Source: a virus | Length of the DNA stretch: 23,816 nucleotides | Reading direction: 5' to 3' (one strand) | IMG/VR virus record: IMGVR_UViG_3300005918_001140 | Coordinates: 1 to 23,816 of that record | Shown here: positions 1,578 through 22,952 of the stretch, one piece after another | How the letters are laid out: each line of letters starts with the position of its first letter | Numbering within the stretch: position 1 is the first letter of the stretch | Translations under genes and position numbers: made by a program | Notes under the pieces: model-generated | The model's database searches: none | Told to the model about the DNA's origin: nothing | Seen by the model: only the letters and a program-made list of their open reading frames with translations

Positions 1578-1816
1578 GTCTTCACCTTAACATCACTTGT
1601 AGACAATTTCCACTTACTTTCAACAGGCTCAATTCGTGGATGTATAGCAATTTTACATATTCCGCAAGGTGGATGATTAAGAGCCTTGTCGTGATGTTCA
1701 CAGTTAGCACAGCATTTCATAGCCTCAATCTGCGATTTCATAGCCTCAATCTGCGATTTTAAAGTTTCGACTTCTACCTGTAATCGATATACATGCGCTT
1801 CGGCTTTAGTTGTCAT
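1568..1816 (-). CDS. Coiled-coil protein with two Cys pairs (probable zinc binding)
   Basis: The start chosen is the ATG at 1816 (MTTKAEAHVYRLQVEVETLK), which overlaps the end of thyX; an upstream TTG-initiated extension is less likely because it lies wholly within thyX. Residues of about 8-33 form a coiled coil that includes an exact heptad duplication, KSQIEAM twice, encoded by a perfect 21-base tandem repeat. It is followed by CANC...CGIC, two CxxC pairs 15 residues apart with nearby His, typical of a small zinc ribbon. This would be a small oligomeric metal-binding protein of unknown role. Sliding of the 21-base repeat would change coiled-coil length in whole heptads. Confidence 0.65.
   Translation of the reverse strand: MTTKAEAHVYRLQVEVETLKSQIEAMKSQIEAMKCCANCEHHDKALNHPPCGICKIAIHPRIEPVESKWKLSTSDVKVKTWE
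1718..1759. repeat. 21-bp perfect tandem repeat, two copies
   Basis: Two identical 21-base units sit head to tail (1718-1738 and 1739-1759) inside the coiled-coil gene and encode the heptad KSQIEAM twice. The exact identity points to recent slippage duplication. Confidence 0.9.
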
Positions 1817-2837
1817 AATCAATTTCACCAAAATGGCGAGCCACACAACCATCCAAGTCTTCGAAATAGCACATTTTCAGATATTCAGTTGACCGACCAC
1901 CCTTGATTTTATCCTTTATAAGTTCTTTCAAATGTGCATCACGATACATTTTAATTTCTTGGCGTAAACTTTCACTAACCACTTTCTCATTATTTTTTGC
2001 GTTACCTTTACTTCCAATGAACGCTTTAATTTGTTCAATTAGCTCTAACCGAATAGGAAAATCATAATTCCTTTCATTGTCACTAGCACTGCCAATTTCA
2101 ATTTCTTTATTCATTCCATATGCATGAATATTGAGAAATTTTTCAATCTTTTCAACAGTCATCCGATTGTCAATAATCTTTAATAGGTTTCTAATATATG
2201 GAACTCTACAAACTTCAGATTTAACCAAAGATGCAAGTCTTATAATTTCTGGGTGTGCATGATTATTCATTCTCAATGCGAGGAAGTTAATAAGGCTTCT
2301 GAAATTAATAGTCCAAATCATTTTGCTTCTGAAATTCTCAACGATTAAATATTTGTAGCAATCTGCTGGAATCCCAATCGACTTAGCCCACTTCATAGTT
2401 TGAAGAGAAGTAAAGTCAAGCCCATGCATTCTAGTTAGGAATTCACGCCATATTTCGGAATTTATATTATCTGGCTTTTCTGGTATAACAAAGTTCTCTA
2501 CATTTGTTGATATAACTTCTTCGAAGCTTGCTGGTGAAATATTTAAGTCACCGTAGCTAGTTAAAGTATCTAATAATTTGGAACAGGAATATCTAGTAGA
2601 TTTTACAGTTGGACTAGCCATTCTATGTCTAGCCAATTGCTGTAAAATTGCTCTTGAGAAACCGCTTAATGTAAAGTTCAATGTAATGTGTTCTGAAACA
2701 CTTTCATGCTTCCATAAACCAACTACCTTATTCACGATTTCCATTGTAGGGTTATCTATATTATATGGTATCCCAACTGCTTTAACAATGACCTTAGATG
2801 GGGGAAAGTGATTTAATTCAACTTTAATATACTTCAT
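1806..2837 (-). CDS. thyX: Flavin-dependent thymidylate synthase ThyX, C-terminally extended
   Basis: ThyX makes dTMP from dUMP using methylene-tetrahydrofolate, FAD and NADPH. The protein shows the family signature RHR-x7-S with RHR at 70-72 and S80 then R82-Y83, the upstream HESVSEH segment (44-50) and a later NFRSLINFLALR stretch that fits the substrate-binding R-S-x-x-x-F-x-x-x-R region. At 343 residues it is about 100 longer than typical bacterial ThyX; the extra C-terminal part (about 240-343) is lysine-rich and helical with no domain I recognise. The start at 2837 has AGAAGG upstream. It is the second gene after promoter P2 and complements the dUTPase and reductase encoded further upstream. 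Confidence 0.92.
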   Translation of the reverse strand: MKYIKVELNHFPPSKVIVKAVGIPYNIDNPTMEIVNKVVGLWKHESVSEHITLNFTLSGFSRAILQQLARHRMASPTVKSTRYSCSKLLDTLTSYGDLNISPASFEEVISTNVENFVIPEKPDNINSEIWREFLTRMHGLDFTSLQTMKWAKSIGIPADCYKYLIVENFRSKMIWTINFRSLINFLALRMNNHAHPEIIRLASLVKSEVCRVPYIRNLLKIIDNRMTVEKIEKFLNIHAYGMNKEIEIGSASDNERNYDFPIRLELIEQIKAFIGSKGNAKNNEKVVSESLRQEIKMYRDAHLKELIKDKIKGGRSTEYLKMCYFEDLDGCVARHFGEIDYDN

Positions 2838-3144: not shown

Positions 3145-3768
3145 TTATTTTATACTTAAAACAAAATTTACCCAACCACAATCATTTGCAAATTTATTCT
3201 TAGATATAGCAATTCGATAGTTCTTTGTATGATTGATAAATCCAGCATCTTTGAAAATCTTAGTCCATTTTTCATCAGAAAAGCAAGATATGTGTGTTGG
3301 GTCGTCACCTTCTCTTGGAACTTCTGGACCTTCTCCAACGGTGCTTATATAAAGGATTGCGCCAGATTTCATAACACGCTTTATTTCAGCAAGTTCTTCC
3401 ATGATATCTTCTTCTGGGATATGCTCAATTACTTGACTCATGTGAACGAAATTGAACTTTGAATCATTGAATGGAATTTTATTATTTTCAATAACAGCCA
3501 TTCTATCTTTAACCTTGGTGAATTTGGTATTGTCTATATACCACTGAGATACATCACAACCAAACATTTCTAGCCCATTCTTGCGGAATAGCTCACAGTA
3601 GCTACCAGTAGCACAGCCAACATCAAGAGATATTGAGTCTTTTACAATGATATTCCCAAATACTTCATTGAGGAAATTCATATATTCCTCATGCCAACCA
3701 CCAACTGAATTCATATCGAATCCCTTATCATCTTTACAATATTCGTGATACTCTTTTCCATACTTCAT
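3145..3768 (-). CDS. Class I SAM-dependent methyltransferase
   Basis: The 207-residue protein has a Rossmann SAM-binding motif I, LDVGCATGSY (49-58), an acidic strand-2 end (FGCDVS), the 'DSKFNFVHMSQVIEHI' motif IV/post region, and the 'KSGAILYIST' strand-5 pattern of Methyltransf_11/25-type enzymes. The ATG at 3768 is chosen because AAGGAAG lies 8 bases upstream; an upstream TTG would start before the ribosome site. Substrate is unknown; such enzymes commonly methylate sugars or small molecules. Its N-terminal block (YGKEYHEYCKDD...GGWHEEY) closely parallels that of the methyltransferase at 22122-22952, so the two appear paralogous. It lies one gene upstream of promoter P2 and is cotranscribed with the small HAD gene. 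Confidence 0.85.
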   Translation of the reverse strand: MKYGKEYHEYCKDDKGFDMNSVGGWHEEYMNFLNEVFGNIIVKDSISLDVGCATGSYCELFRKNGLEMFGCDVSQWYIDNTKFTKVKDRMAVIENNKIPFNDSKFNFVHMSQVIEHIPEEDIMEELAEIKRVMKSGAILYISTVGEGPEVPREGDDPTHISCFSDEKWTKIFKDAGFINHTKNYRIAISKNKFANDCGWVNFVLSIK

Positions 3769-3782
3769 TTTAAATACTTCCT

Positions 3783-4091
3783 TTACCAAACTTCGTTGGT
3801 TCTTCTTCTATCCAAATAAATTACACCATCGTCATGTAGGGTTCTTGGAGACTGAACATTGAAAATGATGTTAAATTCTACACCAAGGCTTTTCAATTCG
3901 GCAACTAATGTTTCCTGAGTTCTTTCAATACTCCATTCCTTGCCTTTATCTTGTCCTCCTCGCATTGTAATAAATATCAATGTATCACCTTTTCGGCTAA
4001 GTTCCAAGATTTTATCCCTAGCACCATCAATCCATTCATTTGTATGATACTCAAAAACAGTTCCATCTATATCAAATATGTGTGTAGCCAA
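3783..4091 (-). CDS. Small HAD-like phosphatase with TTG start
   Basis: The only suitable start is TTG at 4091, six bases after AGGAG, giving MATHIFDIDGTVFEYHTNEW. The 102-residue protein has motif I DIDGT (Asp8, Asp10), motif II-like FITMRGGQDK and a YLDRRR ending. This matches minimal HAD proteins without a cap domain, such as those near sugar or capsule genes; a classical DD motif IV is not obvious, as only the single Asp in YLDRR is seen. Substrate is unknown. It is followed 14 bases later by the methyltransferase. A terminator hairpin lies directly upstream of its ribosome site, so transcription must read through or be attenuated there. Confidence 0.72.
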   Translation of the reverse strand: MATHIFDIDGTVFEYHTNEWIDGARDKILELSRKGDTLIFITMRGGQDKGKEWSIERTQETLVAELKSLGVEFNIIFNVQSPRTLHDDGVIYLDRRRTNEVW

Positions 4092-5724: not shown

Positions 5725-8610
5725 CTACGATATATGGCAATTTCCCCCACCACAACACAGTTCAACTTCTTTGGTATCTTCTTCTTTGGTATCTTCACTG
5801 AGAATATCAGCCCATTCTATATCTTGCTCAACTGCATATTTTTCATAAGTCGCTTTATCTATTTTGTCATATGGCAAATATAGAAATCCGCTAGTATTAG
5901 TTGCAATCGATTCTGGTAAGAATGATAATCCTATAAATTTATGATTACCAATAAGGATATTTTCAACTTCTTCCCATTCATGTTCACGAACATAAACAGT
6001 ACAACTTGGGTTATGGTCACACCAAGAATTCAACACTTCATTGACATATTCAAGTTGTTGTCTGGCGGTCACATCTTCAACAAGAAGTGAATTTTCTGGA
6101 CTCTTCATTGCAAACTTAAATACTCTACCATTAACACCTTTAATATCTTCATATGAGATACCATTCTTTGCAAGTGCATCATGTAATGGGCTTTCAGTTC
6201 CGATTAATACTCTACGCATATAATACTTGGAGTATCTTGGATGAATACCACTCGAGCATCCAACTAGTTGAGATACAGTTCCAGATGGTTTAACACAAGT
6301 ATTTGCCTTTGGTTTTGATTTAAGCCCAACTACTTTCCAGAATTCTTCTACAGTATTATCAACAACCCGTTTGAGTATTCTTAATCTTGCACCAAAGTCA
6401 CCAGTTGTATATGCTTGACAGTCACATAAACCAGTTAATGATACGCCTATAACTGGGTCATTTTCCTGATTGAATGTAACTTCATCTGAAACAAAACCAT
6501 AATCGGTTAATGTCGCTTGTAATAAAGCTAAGATGGTAACGTATCTTACATGAGTCATATCATCCTTGAGAGAGTAATGTGGTCTACATACCTTCTCAAC
6601 TAGGTTACATTGCTTAGTCAATACATTATTAAAAACACATTGATGTAATTTATTTTCAGTTAAGCAATACGATTTATGTTTACCATTTAATTTCACAATA
6701 CTTTTATATATTTGATTTTTTCCCTTTCCAGTAGATTCATTGCGATTGTTGCATATTAAGCGTTTGCATGGGATATTTATAGTTTTTACAATTTGAACAT
6801 AATATACACCAGATTTTCGTATAAATGTATCATTGTTTGGTGTATTGGCAACACTTCCCCGTTTCGCCATTATATTAAATGATGAATTTATACCAACCTT
6901 TGTTAATAGAAGTTGCAAATCTTTAATATTTTCACAATTTCCATAAATGCGAATACCTTTAGAGGCATTACATCCGTCTGCATCAGCCCACCCAGCAATA
7001 AATTTTAGTATAGATTTACGATTCCATGAAAATATATCTTTGGGTAGCCCTTGTTCGGTTTTCATACGTTTACATAAATCTACATTAAGTGTATCGAAAT
7101 ATATATTTTTGTATTCTGAACCATTTTGATTTTGATATACTTTGTCAACAATCCTTCCATTGAGTCCATTTATAGGTTTATTACTATTTGTAAATATATC
7201 TGATTTTGGAGTACATGTATTTTTTGTATATAATAAGCTACCATCACCGATAAAGAAACCATATTCATACGCATCATTTATAGAAATGCCTTCATCTTCC
7301 ATCATTTTAATATTACTTCTTGGTGAATGTATACTATATTTACTATCTTTGATTAAATCGATTAAATCGATTAAATCGATTTCTTTAAATTCTACATTAA
7401 ACCGATTTTTAACCAAAAATTTGTGATTTTTCGTTGCATCTAAATAAGAACCATCTGAAAATGAAACTCTATACAAATCGTCATTATCTCCAGTTTGATA
7501 TGGCTTGACCTTAGACCATTCAACGCCGTTCCAAATTTCAACTTCCTTTCCTATAACATCCTCAATCTTTTCAATTCCATCCTTTGTAATAATTTTTGTA
7601 TCCCCCGAAACACAGAAAGCATTAGGTGGAATTATAATCTCTCCACATGGATTTACACCCCATCCCTTTTTACTTACTCTGCCAAGCCCTTTCATCTTCT
7701 CTTCAATGTTCTTATAGAAGATATATCCTGGTTCTCCATTAACCTTAGTCAGTTTCCAAGCCTTTTTGAATTGCTTTTTGTTTTCAAAATAAACCATTGA
7801 GTTATTTGAATTATATCTCCATGGATATAGAGCTAGATTTTCCTTAGTCTTGCAATAAATCATTTCTTCATCGTTTTCATCGAAGAGACTGATTAAAGCG
7901 GCTCTGCGAACGCCACCCTGAACTGCACAATCGGCAATCATACAACAGATATCATGAACTTGGATTGGTTTGATTTTTGTTTGACCCAATGCGAGTGCTT
8001 CGTTGAACATATCTAATATAAATTCACGCACTTTCAATAATGGTGCTGGCCCTGACGCATAGCCACCAGAAGTTAATAGTGGCGCACCATGTTCACGAAC
8101 ATTACTCGTATCAAATGCAACGACATTCCCTTCATATAATTGTTCTATGAAATTATTCAGAGACCAAGCCCAACCACTTCTAGTATCTTCAACGACATCT
8201 ATCTCATTCTTAGTGTACCATGAATCGGGTAATGTAGGTAACTGATTTACGAATTTACTTTGTACAGATATTCCTACACCACATGTGCAGAGTAAGGAAT
8301 ATAACAGGTCTGCAAAGGATTTAATAGAATCAATTGCTTGATATTTACAATTAAATGCCATTGCATTTTCAGCATCAACGGCTTTACCAGCGGAGAAAAA
8401 TAATCTCATTGAACCAACAATAGACTGTTCGTGCATAAGTTCCCTACACACTTCTATGGCTTTTTCAATTTTATCATTACCAGTAAATCTATTCTTGATA
8501 TAATCTATATATCTATCGACTGACTCGGCATATTTCTCCATTCTGCCGTTATGTTTTCCTGCGTAAGTTCTATTGTGAATAATGTTTTGATATACACTTA
8601 AATTTGTCAT
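5725..8610 (-). CDS. rtpR: Adenosylcobalamin-dependent ribonucleoside-triphosphate reductase (class II), intein-containing
   Basis: The enzyme reduces ribonucleoside triphosphates to dNTPs with a thiyl radical generated from coenzyme B12; being monomeric and oxygen-independent, it needs no radical-generating partner. The 961-residue precursor contains an intein at residues 333-667, leaving a 626-residue enzyme, shorter than the 739-residue Lactobacillus leichmannii protein. Matches to the latter are clear: N320, C322 and E324 in NPCGEI correspond to N406, C408 (thiyl) and E410; C668, eleven extein residues after C322, corresponds to C419; C88 (FNCKY) is the likely C119 partner; and the C-terminal pair C953/C958 (CCGGGNC) corresponds to C731/C736 used for re-reduction. 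It heads a unit with the 57-aa, dut and zinc-ribbon genes. Activity requires splicing, since the intein separates two catalytic cysteines. Confidence 0.93.
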   Translation of the reverse strand: MTNLSVYQNIIHNRTYAGKHNGRMEKYAESVDRYIDYIKNRFTGNDKIEKAIEVCRELMHEQSIVGSMRLFFSAGKAVDAENAMAFNCKYQAIDSIKSFADLLYSLLCTCGVGISVQSKFVNQLPTLPDSWYTKNEIDVVEDTRSGWAWSLNNFIEQLYEGNVVAFDTSNVREHGAPLLTSGGYASGPAPLLKVREFILDMFNEALALGQTKIKPIQVHDICCMIADCAVQGGVRRAALISLFDENDEEMIYCKTKENLALYPWRYNSNNSMVYFENKKQFKKAWKLTKVNGEPGYIFYKNIEEKMKGLGRVSKKGWGVNPCGEIIIPPNAFCVSGDTKIITKDGIEKIEDVIGKEVEIWNGVEWSKVKPYQTGDNDDLYRVSFSDGSYLDATKNHKFLVKNRFNVEFKEIDLIDLIDLIKDSKYSIHSPRSNIKMMEDEGISINDAYEYGFFIGDGSLLYTKNTCTPKSDIFTNSNKPINGLNGRIVDKVYQNQNGSEYKNIYFDTLNVDLCKRMKTEQGLPKDIFSWNRKSILKFIAGWADADGCNASKGIRIYGNCENIKDLQLLLTKVGINSSFNIMAKRGSVANTPNNDTFIRKSGVYYVQIVKTINIPCKRLICNNRNESTGKGKNQIYKSIVKLNGKHKSYCLTENKLHQCVFNNVLTKQCNLVEKVCRPHYSLKDDMTHVRYVTILALLQATLTDYGFVSDEVTFNQENDPVIGVSLTGLCDCQAYTTGDFGARLRILKRVVDNTVEEFWKVVGLKSKPKANTCVKPSGTVSQLVGCSSGIHPRYSKYYMRRVLIGTESPLHDALAKNGISYEDIKGVNGRVFKFAMKSPENSLLVEDVTARQQLEYVNEVLNSWCDHNPSCTVYVREHEWEEVENILIGNHKFIGLSFLPESIATNTSGFLYLPYDKIDKATYEKYAVEQDIEWADILSEDTKEEDTKEVELCCGGGNCHIS
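6610..7614 (-). mobile_element. LAGLIDADG intein in rtpR (335 aa)
   Basis: Block A starts at Cys333 (CVSGDTKI). Block B is DATKNHKF with Thr393 and His396. Two LAGLIDADG dodecapeptides follow: YGFFIGDGS (about 450-458) and FIAGWADADG (about 537-546), indicating a homing endonuclease. Block F is an atypical YCLTENKLHQ...VLTKQ ending at Gln667, followed by extein Cys668. The penultimate residue is Lys instead of the usual His, and the last is Gln instead of Asn; Gln-ending inteins are known in other proteins. Removal restores NPCGEIIIPPNAF joined to CNLVE, the expected reductase sequence. A 9-base unit repeated three times (7351-7377) encodes an I-D-L repeat within it. Confidence 0.9.
7351..7377. 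repeat. Three 9-bp tandem repeats in the rtpR intein
   Basis: GATTAAATC is repeated three times without interruption, encoding the I-D-L tripeptide repeat between intein block B and the first LAGLIDADG motif. It is a simple slippage repeat in a linker. Confidence 0.85.
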
Positions 8611-11930: not shown

Positions 11931-14900
11931 ATGAAAATAAATGAGATAGAAGCGATAAAAATGAAGTTACTCGGCGTCCTAGATGACCCCGAATTCGTAA
12001 ATGATTTATTTAGAGAATATAAAGGACGAGAAGGTGAAATCTCTCAGATTATAAATGAATCATTTGAAGAGATTGTTGAGATGTCAAATCCATTTAGATA
12101 TGAAATGGTTAGCCCTGAAACATTCCTAGATGACCCATATTATTGTGGGATAAATCCAGAAAGTGGTGTCGGTGTTTGTGAATCGATATATCCACAACTA
12201 AGAAAGGATTTCATAAACATCCATAGCCCAGATTCAGTTATATCCGAAGTGGTATTAACTGGTTCAATTGGATGGGGAAAATCATTTTTCATGCAACTTG
12301 GAGTATTGTGGCAACTCTACTATCTGGCTTGTCTGAAATATCCCCAGAGATATTACCGATTGGCTCCCAGTACTCCCATAGGTATAATCATTATATCTGT
12401 TACAGAGAGACAAGGTAAAAAGAACATTTTTGCCACTGTTAAAGATATGATACGCATGATACCTTTTTTTCAAGAGAACTTCATGTTTGATGAAAAGAAA
12501 TCAACTGACTCATTAATATTCCCCAATAAGATTGAATTATTTCCAGCATCTTCTTCTCATTCGTCAAATATCGGTCTTAACCTATTTTCTGGCGCAATGG
12601 ATGAAGCAAACTTCTTCAAAAAGATTAAGAATTCTAAGCGTTCTGAAAATGGAACTGGTTTGTTTGATGAAGCGAAAACATTGTATAGAAGCTTGAGAAG
12701 ACGACTTGATTCTCGATTTTTGAAAAAGGGTAGACGTCCTGGAATTCTATACTTGGGTTCCTCAAGAGTATATCCAAACGATTTCACAACTGAGCATATT
12801 GACGAATTAGAATCAGCCATGAGAAAGACAGGAAATAAATCTGCACATATCATGGATTATAACCAGTGGAAAGTAAATCGTGATGCATATTCAAAACAAG
12901 AATTCCGAGTTGAAATTGGTGAACTGAATAGAAGAAGTAGAATTCTGAATGAATTTGAGAAGCCGAAAGGTAAAGTGGTTATCAATGTTCCAATGGATTT
13001 CTATGACGCATTTGAGAGAGATATTGAGAATGCTATAAGAGATATCGCTGGACTTGGTGTTCATGCTATTCAGCCATTCATCGGTAATAAAGATAAGATT
13101 ATGGAAATGTTTGATGAAGGTCTCCAAAGCATTTTCAGCGTTGAACAAGCAACACTTTCACCGAAATCAGAATTCTTAGTTAGAGAATTCATTCGTAAGA
13201 CCTGCACCAATCCAGATGTTCCAAGGTATAGTGGAATGGATATCGGGATAACGAAAGATAGGTTTGGTTTTGCTGTTGGTTATATTGAGGGATATGCCGA
13301 TATGAAACGTGAATTATTCAATGACGAAACTCAGAAAATGGAAAGTTATACTGAGAGATTACCAAAAATAGTTGTTGAATTGTTATTGGAAATTGTTCCA
13401 GAGAAAGAATTTGGTGAGGTTGAGATAGCACGAGTCAGGTATCTAATCTTCCAATTGATAAAGAAGCTGTATAGAGTTCGTAGAGCAAGCTGTGATGGGT
13501 TCCAATCAAAGGATATGCAACAACAAATGAAACGAAATGGAATCAATATGGTATATGTTTCCATGGATAGAACGCCAGAGCCATACGAAACATTCAGAAC
13601 AGCATTGTATGAAGGTAGAATTCGTTCCGTATATCATCCAAAACTCGAAATTGAACTCAATGAACTTGAGAGAGATTATAGTAGAAATAAAATTGACCAT
13701 CCACCAACTGGATGTTTCTTGGGTGAAACTAAAATAAAATTACTTAATGGCAAGCATGTAAAAATTAAAGAATTGGTCGGGAAGTCAAATGTTGAGTTAT
13801 ATGGTTGTAAATCCGATGGTGAAATAATTCCAACAATTGCTAAAAAGATATGGAAAACTAAAGAAGTTGTAGATTATTTACAAATTACGTTAGATAATGG
13901 GGAAATTGTAAAATGCACACCAGAACATAAGTTTATGTTGCGTGATGGAACTTATAAAGAAGCTCAATATTTAAGCAATGTAGATTCATTGATGCCTCTA
14001 TACTCAAATTATGAGGGGAGTTTTTTAAATGGATATGAAAGATTTCAAAATAATAAAACCAAGAAGCAGGTATTTACACATTCAATGGTTGATAGATATT
14101 ATAATGGTAAGCGAGATTCAGACGATGTAGTGGTTCATCACTATGATATAAACCCAAAGAATAATAGTAGTATAAATCTCAAACGGATGACCAGAGAAGA
14201 CCATGCTAGAGTTCACAGTCTATTAAACGAACTCGGAAATAAACCAGAAAATATTGCAAGGCGAGTAAAAACATTAAAACGAAATACTAGAATTCGTGCT
14301 GGTATCGACCCAGATTCAAAATTAGCACCATGGGAAATTCGTTTAAAAGATAGTAAAATGAATCCAGCGCAAGTAAGTAAACACTTAACCAAAATTTCTA
14401 GGACATCAAATAGAAGAAAATTGTCAAGGGCGCAAGCAAATAAAGTAAATTCTGGCTATTGGCAAAGCGAAGAGGGTAAACTGCGAAGACAGGAACTATC
14501 AAAAACGCAATTAAAGGAGGCTCTTGCCAAAAGAATACAGCGAGAAGATGACCGCTGGTTATCCAAATTTGATACATCTTTAGAATATAAAGGTATTACT
14601 GAAATTTACAAAATTTATGGTGGTGGTAATGTTGCTGTCAAACGTCGACTAAAATCAATTGGTTATATAATCAATATAGGATATAAGCACAATCACAAGA
14701 TTGTAAAAATCGAAAAAATCCATTCAAAAACCCCAATCCCAGTTTATGATATAGAAGTTCCAGTGAGTAATAACTTTGCATTATCGGCTGGTATATTCGT
14801 TCACAACTCAAAAGATATGGCTGATGCCGTTGCTTCTATGGTATATAATATGCATGTTGATCCAGTTTATAGCACAAGTGACTTAATGCCGAGTATAATG

Positions 14901-14993
14901 GGAACTGAGGGCGAAGATGGAGCTACACAACATCATGAATTTAGTGACGACCCAGAAATTGAAGCATTTGAACGAGAAATTCGTGGGATGTAA
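11931..14993 (+). CDS. terL: Terminase large subunit, intein-containing
   Basis: The terminase is the ATPase motor and nuclease that packages DNA into proheads. The 1020-residue precursor contains a 365-residue intein (595-959), leaving 655 residues. ATPase: Walker A-like GSIGWGKS (111-118) and Walker B AMDEANF with D224-E225. RNase H-like nuclease: first acid in SGMDIG (D437), second in SCDGFQ (D522), and the conserved G-SKDMADAV motif that forms when G594 is joined to S960 (acids D962/D965). The start at 11931 has no Shine-Dalgarno and sits at the predicted transcript start; M11 (11961) is an alternative but also lacks a clear site. It opens the rightward structural arm. Confidence 0.93.
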   Translation: MKINEIEAIKMKLLGVLDDPEFVNDLFREYKGREGEISQIINESFEEIVEMSNPFRYEMVSPETFLDDPYYCGINPESGVGVCESIYPQLRKDFINIHSPDSVISEVVLTGSIGWGKSFFMQLGVLWQLYYLACLKYPQRYYRLAPSTPIGIIIISVTERQGKKNIFATVKDMIRMIPFFQENFMFDEKKSTDSLIFPNKIELFPASSSHSSNIGLNLFSGAMDEANFFKKIKNSKRSENGTGLFDEAKTLYRSLRRRLDSRFLKKGRRPGILYLGSSRVYPNDFTTEHIDELESAMRKTGNKSAHIMDYNQWKVNRDAYSKQEFRVEIGELNRRSRILNEFEKPKGKVVINVPMDFYDAFERDIENAIRDIAGLGVHAIQPFIGNKDKIMEMFDEGLQSIFSVEQATLSPKSEFLVREFIRKTCTNPDVPRYSGMDIGITKDRFGFAVGYIEGYADMKRELFNDETQKMESYTERLPKIVVELLLEIVPEKEFGEVEIARVRYLIFQLIKKLYRVRRASCDGFQSKDMQQQMKRNGINMVYVSMDRTPEPYETFRTALYEGRIRSVYHPKLEIELNELERDYSRNKIDHPPTGCFLGETKIKLLNGKHVKIKELVGKSNVELYGCKSDGEIIPTIAKKIWKTKEVVDYLQITLDNGEIVKCTPEHKFMLRDGTYKEAQYLSNVDSLMPLYSNYEGSFLNGYERFQNNKTKKQVFTHSMVDRYYNGKRDSDDVVVHHYDINPKNNSSINLKRMTREDHARVHSLLNELGNKPENIARRVKTLKRNTRIRAGIDPDSKLAPWEIRLKDSKMNPAQVSKHLTKISRTSNRRKLSRAQANKVNSGYWQSEEGKLRRQELSKTQLKEALAKRIQREDDRWLSKFDTSLEYKGITEIYKIYGGGNVAVKRRLKSIGYIINIGYKHNHKIVKIEKIHSKTPIPVYDIEVPVSNNFALSAGIFVHNSKDMADAVASMVYNMHVDPVYSTSDLMPSIMGTEGEDGATQHHEFSDDPEIEAFEREIRGM
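13713..14807 (+). mobile_element. HNH intein in terL (365 aa)
   Basis: Block A begins at Cys595 (CFLGETKIKLLNG). Block B is VKCTPEHKF with T663 and H666. The endonuclease is an HNH type: VVVHHYDINPKNNSSINL (about 733-750) followed by EDHARVH. A basic region with a helical DNA-binding segment (GITEIYKIYGGGNVAVKRRL) follows. The C-terminal blocks are NHKIVKIEKI, VYDIEVP and IFVHN959, ahead of Ser960. This is a canonical class with Cys1, His-Asn end and Ser+1. Excision joins DHPPTG to SKDMADAV. Confidence 0.93.
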
Positions 14994-22121: not shown

Positions 22122-22952
22122 ATGGTTAAGAAAAATACAGGTAAGGCAAATAAAGCCCCCAAATCTCCTAAAGTGTCAAAGGCAACTAAGCCAGAAATTA
22201 CTACAGCCCCCAAAGTAAATTTGGATGTAACTGTTCCGATAGATGAAGATGATGTTTCAGAAATTGGGCCAGAAGTAAAAGCTCCAGTTGTCAAAAAGAC
22301 AGAAGAGCCAACAGTTAAGAATGGTATCGTTATGCGTATCAAAGAAAATGCAGTTGCGTTCGGTAAACATTATTTTGATACAACTAAGGAAGCTGGTTGT
22401 GATTTATCATTTGCTGGTGAATGGCAACAGGCATATGGTGGATTAATCGCAAGATTACTAGAAACTGATGGTAAAAAAGTTCTTGATATTGGTGGAGCAT
22501 TTGGTACAATTTCTCATGCTATCGCTACTATTGGTAAATGTAAAGTTCTGAATGTTGATATAAGTAAACACGTTGTTGAAAATCAAACATTCAAAGAGGA
22601 TAAATTGGTTCCAGCTATAGTTGCACCAATTCAGCATATGAAACAGGTTGATGATGAATCATTTGACGCTGTGCATATTTCTCACGTATTAAACTATGTG
22701 CATCCAGAAGACTTAGAACGCTCAATAAAAGAAGTTGCTAGAGTATTGAAATCTGGTGGAAAGTGTTTCATCATTCATTCTGGTAAGACTTTTAAGAAGG
22801 ATGCATTCAGTGTTGACCATAAAGAGTTAATCGCATTATGTGAAGAGTATATCGGTGATGTATTGAAGATTGATACAGCTAAAGTCGATGACAGAGATTA
22901 TAAATTCTTCGCTAACTATACATGGGATTGTCTTTTAATTCAAAAGAAATAA
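22122..22952 (+). CDS. SAM-dependent methyltransferase with K/A/P-rich leader
   Basis: The 276-residue protein begins with a disordered leader of about 65 residues (MVKKNTGKANKAPKSPKVSK then an acidic V/P/E stretch), followed by a class I methyltransferase: motif I VLDIGGAFGT (120-129), acidic strand-2 end LNVDIS, then DESFDAVHISHVLNYVHPEDL and a KSGGKCFIIHSG strand. AAAGGA precedes the ATG. Its catalytic part is paralogous to the enzyme at 3145-3768; the leader is unique to this copy and resembles that of the protein at 20578. Adjacent to the glycosyltransferase, it most likely methylates the same glycan or a virion protein. Confidence 0.82.
   Translation: MVKKNTGKANKAPKSPKVSKATKPEITTAPKVNLDVTVPIDEDDVSEIGPEVKAPVVKKTEEPTVKNGIVMRIKENAVAFGKHYFDTTKEAGCDLSFAGEWQQAYGGLIARLLETDGKKVLDIGGAFGTISHAIATIGKCKVLNVDISKHVVENQTFKEDKLVPAIVAPIQHMKQVDDESFDAVHISHVLNYVHPEDLERSIKEVARVLKSGGKCFIIHSGKTFKKDAFSVDHKELIALCEEYIGDVLKIDTAKVDDRDYKFFANYTWDCLLIQKK

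Follow-up and report, generated by a model that had tools for sequence, protein, structure and literature searches.

A phage class II ribonucleotide reductase intein inserted immediately before the equivalent of RTPR C419

The ribonucleotide reductase (RNR) of a tailed phage is interrupted by an intein whose +1 residue aligns with C419, the second active-site cysteine of the monomeric class II reductase RTPR, and the same cysteine would therefore serve in splicing and, later, in catalysis. We consider it very probable that this is an ordinary selfish class 1 LAGLIDADG intein, one of a site-specific lineage that occupies the C419 position in the class II RNRs of phages and cyanobacteria. It provides a clean case in which a host enzyme puts the +1 nucleophile of an intein to a second use, as one of its redox cysteines.

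The window, by which we mean the whole 23,816-base stretch analysed, is an IMG/VR virus record from a tailed phage, with terminase, portal, head protease and major head protein on its right side and, on its left side, a nucleotide cassette of ThyX thymidylate synthase, dUTPase, deoxynucleoside monophosphate kinase and DNA methyltransferase. The ThyX-type synthase (1806-2837, minus strand) carries ~130 extra C-terminal residues beyond the model, and two SAM methyltransferases lie at opposite ends of the window (3145-3789, minus strand; 22122-22952, plus strand). A second, different intein is found in the terminase large subunit (13713-14810, plus strand, within the ORF at 11931-14993); it spans approximately residues 595-960, reads CFLGETKIK...FVHN/S (a slash marks a splice junction here and below), contains an HNH_3 endonuclease and has the canonical His-Asn end.

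The reductase ORF is open and encodes a precursor of 961 aa, or 626 aa once spliced, and three further IMG/VR contigs encode a 100% identical reductase protein, giving an open frame in four contigs in all. It matches TIGR02505 (E 3.7e-62, a score that falls under the curated cut-off because of the intein insert) and PDB 1l1l (E 3e-31), homology which suggests that the enzyme is adenosylcobalamin-dependent. In RTPR, C408 forms the thiyl radical, C119 and C419 form the active-site disulfide, and C731 and C736 act as a C-terminal relay. The general RNR scheme is one of a radical cysteine and a cysteine pair (PMC4390871). The features of the host gene are:

5725..8610, minus strand: intein-containing gene for a predicted class II (adenosylcobalamin, monomeric RTPR-type) ribonucleotide reductase, from TIGR02505 and PDB 1l1l
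8347..8349, minus strand: Cys88 (FNC motif), likely the RTPR C119 equivalent; NC kept in 10/10 aligned reductases
7645..7647, minus strand: thiyl cysteine of NPCGEI, the RTPR C408 equivalent, from the 1l1l alignment
6607..6609, minus strand: +1 Cys of the C-extein, the RTPR C419 equivalent, from the ungapped 1l1l alignment
5737..5754, minus strand: C-terminal cysteine pair C953/C958, aligning with the C-terminal C-x4-C of 1l1l

The C408 and C419 positions, together with the C-terminal pair, place the enzyme among the monomeric class II RNRs (RTPR/NrdJm). The C119 region lies outside the phmmer alignment, and equating Cys88 with C119 rests on the conservation of NC.

Within this gene, domain models and the predicted fold delimit the intein and its working parts, listed here with their conservation among the 31 distinct viral inteins that we found at the C419 position:

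6610..7614, minus strand: intein of 335 aa (residues 333-667), splicing domain plus LAGLIDADG homing endonuclease, from domain models and fold
7612..7614, minus strand: intein Cys1 (residue 333), 31/31
7423..7434, minus strand: block B TKNH (intein T61, H64); H 31/31, T 30/31
7237..7260, minus strand: first LAGLIDADG motif, GFFIGDGS (acidic residue D124); D 30/31, with I-DmoI and PI-PfuI homology
6973..7002, minus strand: second LAGLIDADG motif, FIAGWADADG (intein D213); DG 31/31
6664..6666, minus strand: block F position 4 Cys (intein C317), 31/31
6643..6645, minus strand: block F His (intein H324), 25/31
6610..6615, minus strand: intein C-terminal Lys-Gln (K334, Q335); Gln 31/31, penultimate residue K 12, Y 12, H 4, F 2, G 1

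The TIGR01445 intein_Nterm model matches from residue 333 exactly (E 2e-9), and PF14890 and PF14528 (LAGLIDADG_3) give weaker matches, under their curated cut-offs. An AlphaFold model of the intein, built on an alignment of 31 sequences, has a mean pLDDT of 91.8, and the solved folds that it most closely resembles are those of inteins with a homing endonuclease, TliVMA (7qsu) and PI-PfuI (1dq3). Cys1, block B T61 and H64, the +1 Cys and a cyclisable C-terminal residue (Asn, Gln or Asp; here Gln335) are those of a class 1 intein, and two motifs with acidic D124 and D213, together with the I-DmoI and PI-PfuI matches, are those of a LAGLIDADG homing endonuclease. The penultimate residue is Lys334 in place of His, which is usual for class 1 but not obligatory. 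Class 3 splicing, which the block F Cys might bring to mind, is ruled out by the presence and invariance of Cys1; cysteine is the second commonest residue at that block F position across inteins generally (PMC4031507).

Excision of residues 333-667 gives the junction NPCGEIIIPPNAF-CNLVE. When the spliced protein is compared with PDB 1l1l by phmmer, NPCGEIIIPPNAFCNL falls on NPCGEISLANGEPCNL with zero gaps, so that C408 is matched by the NPC Cys and C419 by the +1 Cys, 11 residues apart; positions 408 and 419 were obtained by counting from the printed ends of the alignment, and a literature search for this numbering gave no match. A natural inteinless viral reductase, L005, 57% identical to the window extein, runs uninterrupted over the site as NPCGEVILLSDQFCNLSE. 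A sequence-only reading of this DNA had proposed the same intein boundaries (residues 333-667, 6610-7614), the same junction and the Lys-Gln end, and had taken the 11-residue distance from the thiyl cysteine as the C408-C419 spacing of RTPR, with the +1 nucleophile equivalent to C419. All of this anatomy is correct: the two comparisons that it had suggested as checks, with an RTPR structure and with intein models, put the Cys on C419 and the intein start at residue 333, respectively. The intact frame, the conserved residues and the inteinless allele suggest that the exteins are indeed spliced, and loss of the +1 Cys should break both splicing and the enzyme.

The phage RNR intein family, which we gathered by tblastn and pattern scans, is large, and most of its members directly precede the radical cysteine (SNL/C or NP/C) in class I NrdA or class II enzymes, so that in dozens of relatives the +1 residue is the radical cysteine itself. 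A +1 nucleophile that doubles as a catalytic cysteine is thus common in this family. Among 64 inteins at the radical-cysteine site, a set that contains some near-duplicates, the ends are Gly-Gln (33), Gly-Asn (27), Ser-Gln (2), Leu-Asn (1) and Arg-Arg (1), with His-Asn in 0/64. A second scan yielded the 31 viral inteins at the C419 position (distinct meaning below 90% identity), mostly from uncultured viral contigs, which are fragments; 27 lie at exactly the window site and four are one codon further on. C1, H64, C317, Gln335 and the +1 Cys are each invariant in all 31. Judged by these relatives, the Lys-Gln end is the norm of the window intein's lineage, an inherited family trait, and this argues against inferring regulation from the end. 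Two further members of the wider family occupy other places: one (L051, 3501-4484) is apparently in an RNR small subunit with Ser at +1 (IEDVH/SETYSRL), and another (L106, 140-1036, on a contig binned as Nitrospinaceae) lies towards the C-terminal end of a class II reductase (QDHW/CEHKPSITV).

The C419-position inteins form one clade, apart from the radical-cysteine family, with 100/100 support in three trees. There are two exceptions to its site preference, a viral intein at the radical-cysteine site (L164) and one in an unrelated protein (L149, 4001-4969), the latter an apparent jump into what looks like a glycosyltransferase gene (FGNEH/CDYNNR). Movement within the clade has been horizontal: between the window and L030, identity is 55% for the inteins but 31% for the spliced host enzymes, the opposite of what vertical descent would give, and the closest host enzyme to the window reductase is that of the inteinless L005, an empty-site allele (pairwise identities vary by a few percent with the alignment method). 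The endonuclease motifs are intact and near-invariant (DG of the second motif in 31/31, D124 in 30/31). In the four shifted viral inteins (L146, L147, L156 and L157; ELC/C...Q/CLVE), C419 stays in the N-extein and the +1 residue is an added Cys that follows it, and in L176 and L185 the +1 residue is a Ser immediately after the radical cysteine. Such one-codon slips, and the Ser, are to be expected of an element that targets DNA rather than of a tuned switch.

Viruses are not the only carriers. A pattern scan of bacterial genomes had suggested that the clade was confined to viruses, which is wrong, as the pattern-based locus scan is limited and missed cyanobacterial members that a profile search caught: 24/386 cyanobacterial genomes carry inteins of the clade (E-values 1e-106 to 1e-124), and in two other phyla (396 and 399 genomes) the same search gave nothing comparably strong. 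The 23 cyanobacterial inteins that could be parsed all precede the same CNL motif, with NFH or DFH upstream where this is readable, and end in Gly-Asn (15) or Gly-Gln (8). They nest within the viral clade, and those ending in Asn form one supported group, so that Gln and Asn appear interchangeable given the switch in this branch. The reductase genes that bear them are presumably chromosomal. In 20 of these reductases the upstream side can be read, and 11 of those have a further intein at the radical cysteine. Since the same clade occupies the same site in cyanobacteria, the insertion site is already part of known biology and is not new; it probably corresponds to a catalogued RIR1 allele, to which we assign no letter. 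Catalogued RNR intein alleles include rir1-b, -g, -k, -l and -m, some of them with cyanobacteria (PMC4071816). Thermus thermophilus HB27 plasmid pTT27, read through for use of the C419 site, has no annotated NrdJ, and the NrdJ of a Halorussus plasmid is annotated as an ordinary 2139-base gene.

Double occupancy is also seen in viruses, where at least 10 class II reductases (L036/L143, L032/L135, L037/L159, L123, L132, L144, L151, L152, L157 and L158) have inteins at or beside both cysteine sites, with ~10-18 extein residues between them. L032 has a third intein, at NIRR/C...HN/S. The genes of L140 and L143 are near-identical and differ by the upstream intein, indicating that the upstream element is polymorphic.

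How might an intein of this kind work and persist? In the pathway we propose, for a lineage that inserts immediately before the second active-site cysteine, Cys1 would attack the Phe-Cys junction, the N-extein would pass to the +1 Cys as a branched thioester, and the intein would be freed by cyclisation of Gln335, with block F residues assisting in place of a penultimate His. A Phe-Cys peptide bond would then form, releasing the thiol that becomes one partner in the active-site disulfide. A catalytic region that does not vary may serve as a safe harbour, offering a conserved DNA target and a +1 nucleophile unable to drift, and imprecise loss of the intein would presumably kill an enzyme that the phage needs. 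What we infer is that splicing follows this chemistry, efficiently and constitutively, and that the intein has a working endonuclease.

The sequence-only reading had regarded Lys-Gln as an oddity that slows splicing, and an intein that is decaying, slow or splicing-deficient, having lost efficient C-terminal cleavage, would leave a large share of the reductase unspliced or cut into halves. The missing penultimate His and the slow splicing of two PolII inteins, Pab and Mma, with a C-terminal Gln (PMC4031507) are in keeping with such a defect, and count against the selfish-intein reading too, as does the origin of most C419-site relatives in uncultured viral contigs. However, the absence of that His is a family rule, and Gln is last in all 31 viral relatives across deep divergence, 12 of them ending in Lys-Gln. 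The splicing and endonuclease motifs are all intact, and the frame is open in each of the four contigs. The literature is itself split: a Gln end is an accepted class 1 variant, and one viral example, the RNR intein of Chilo iridescent virus, splices better with Gln than with Asn (PMC4031507). With Gln-ended inteins slow in some cases and preferred in another, slow splicing is not something that can be read from the letters of a sequence. The invariance of Gln, C1, H64 and C317 argues against a crippled intein, which we think extremely unlikely, and conservation over deep divergence suggests that a Gln-ended, His-less splicing centre works in this lineage.

It is tempting to speculate, as that same reading did, that dNTP synthesis is gated by redox-sensitive splicing. 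Oxidation would lock Cys1, C317, the +1 Cys or nearby reductase cysteines in a disulfide, holding the precursor unspliced and dNTP synthesis off until the cell was reduced again. Three invariant cysteines do sit at the splicing centre, with C408 just 11 residues upstream, and gating is made chemically feasible by precedents in the catalytic cysteine of M. smegmatis DnaBi1, which forms a disulfide under peroxide (PMC6195587), and in other inteins sensitised by active-site disulfides (PMC4031507). But the conserved cysteines are those of splicing, and the identical set is present across the family at whatever site, hence it is no adaptation to C419; beyond the splicing centre cysteines are poorly conserved (position 283, 42%; 326, 29%; others at most 16%; n=31), and no conserved one that might act as a dedicated redox partner is visible in the 31-intein alignment. 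Furthermore, in four relatives the +1 role falls to a cysteine other than C419, and a lytic phage would presumably need its dNTPs fast. We found no positive evidence for gating, which we judge very unlikely. A more general version, in which the C419-site intein of class II reductases, by itself or paired with an intein at the radical cysteine, acts as a maturation gate with a rate set by thiol state, strikes us as a long shot; if true, active-site cysteines would be kept apart until splicing, and dNTP supply would be tuned post-translationally. A selfish mobile intein remains our preferred reading, and its relatives are useful in their own right. At or beside a single site there are 31 viral inteins and 23 cyanobacterial ones, which differ naturally in having Gln or Asn as last residue, show five different penultimate residues and include one-codon shifts; they form a comparative set with which the splicing of inteins without a His-Asn end can be tested.

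Among known systems, the cyanobacterial class II RNR inteins (NFH/CNL) share both site and clade with the window intein, and differ in their Gly-Asn or Gly-Gln ends. The radical-cysteine inteins of phage RNRs, such as those of Vibrio phage ICP1 NrdA, Staphylococcus phage V1SA20, Rheinheimera Barba and Caulobacter phages, and Thermus phage G20c RTPR, resemble it in having a LAGLIDADG endonuclease, a block F Cys, no penultimate His, a Gln or Asn end and a catalytic cysteine at +1; those of NrdA are full-length kin at 24-30% identity, and that of G20c aligns in part. In contrast to the window intein, which ends in Lys-Gln before the C419 equivalent, they precede the thiyl cysteine (SNL/C or NP/C) and mostly end in Gly-Gln or Gly-Asn. 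PI-PfuI of Pyrococcus furiosus (1dq3) is also an RNR intein with a LAGLIDADG endonuclease, and is both the best solved sequence relative of the window endonuclease part and the second-best fold match, but it is archaeal, larger and 12% identical over the fold alignment. The NrdJ-1 split intein shares a host of the nrdJ-type class II RNR kind, yet it is split, mini, Asn-ended and at another site. We take that site to be beside the thiyl cysteine with Ser at +1, much like the upstream inteins of L132 and L144. NrdJ-1 splices very fast (PMC7090010). The Chilo iridescent virus RNR intein, viral and Gln-ended like that of the window, is likened to it here by its description (PMC4031507) rather than by sequence or site.
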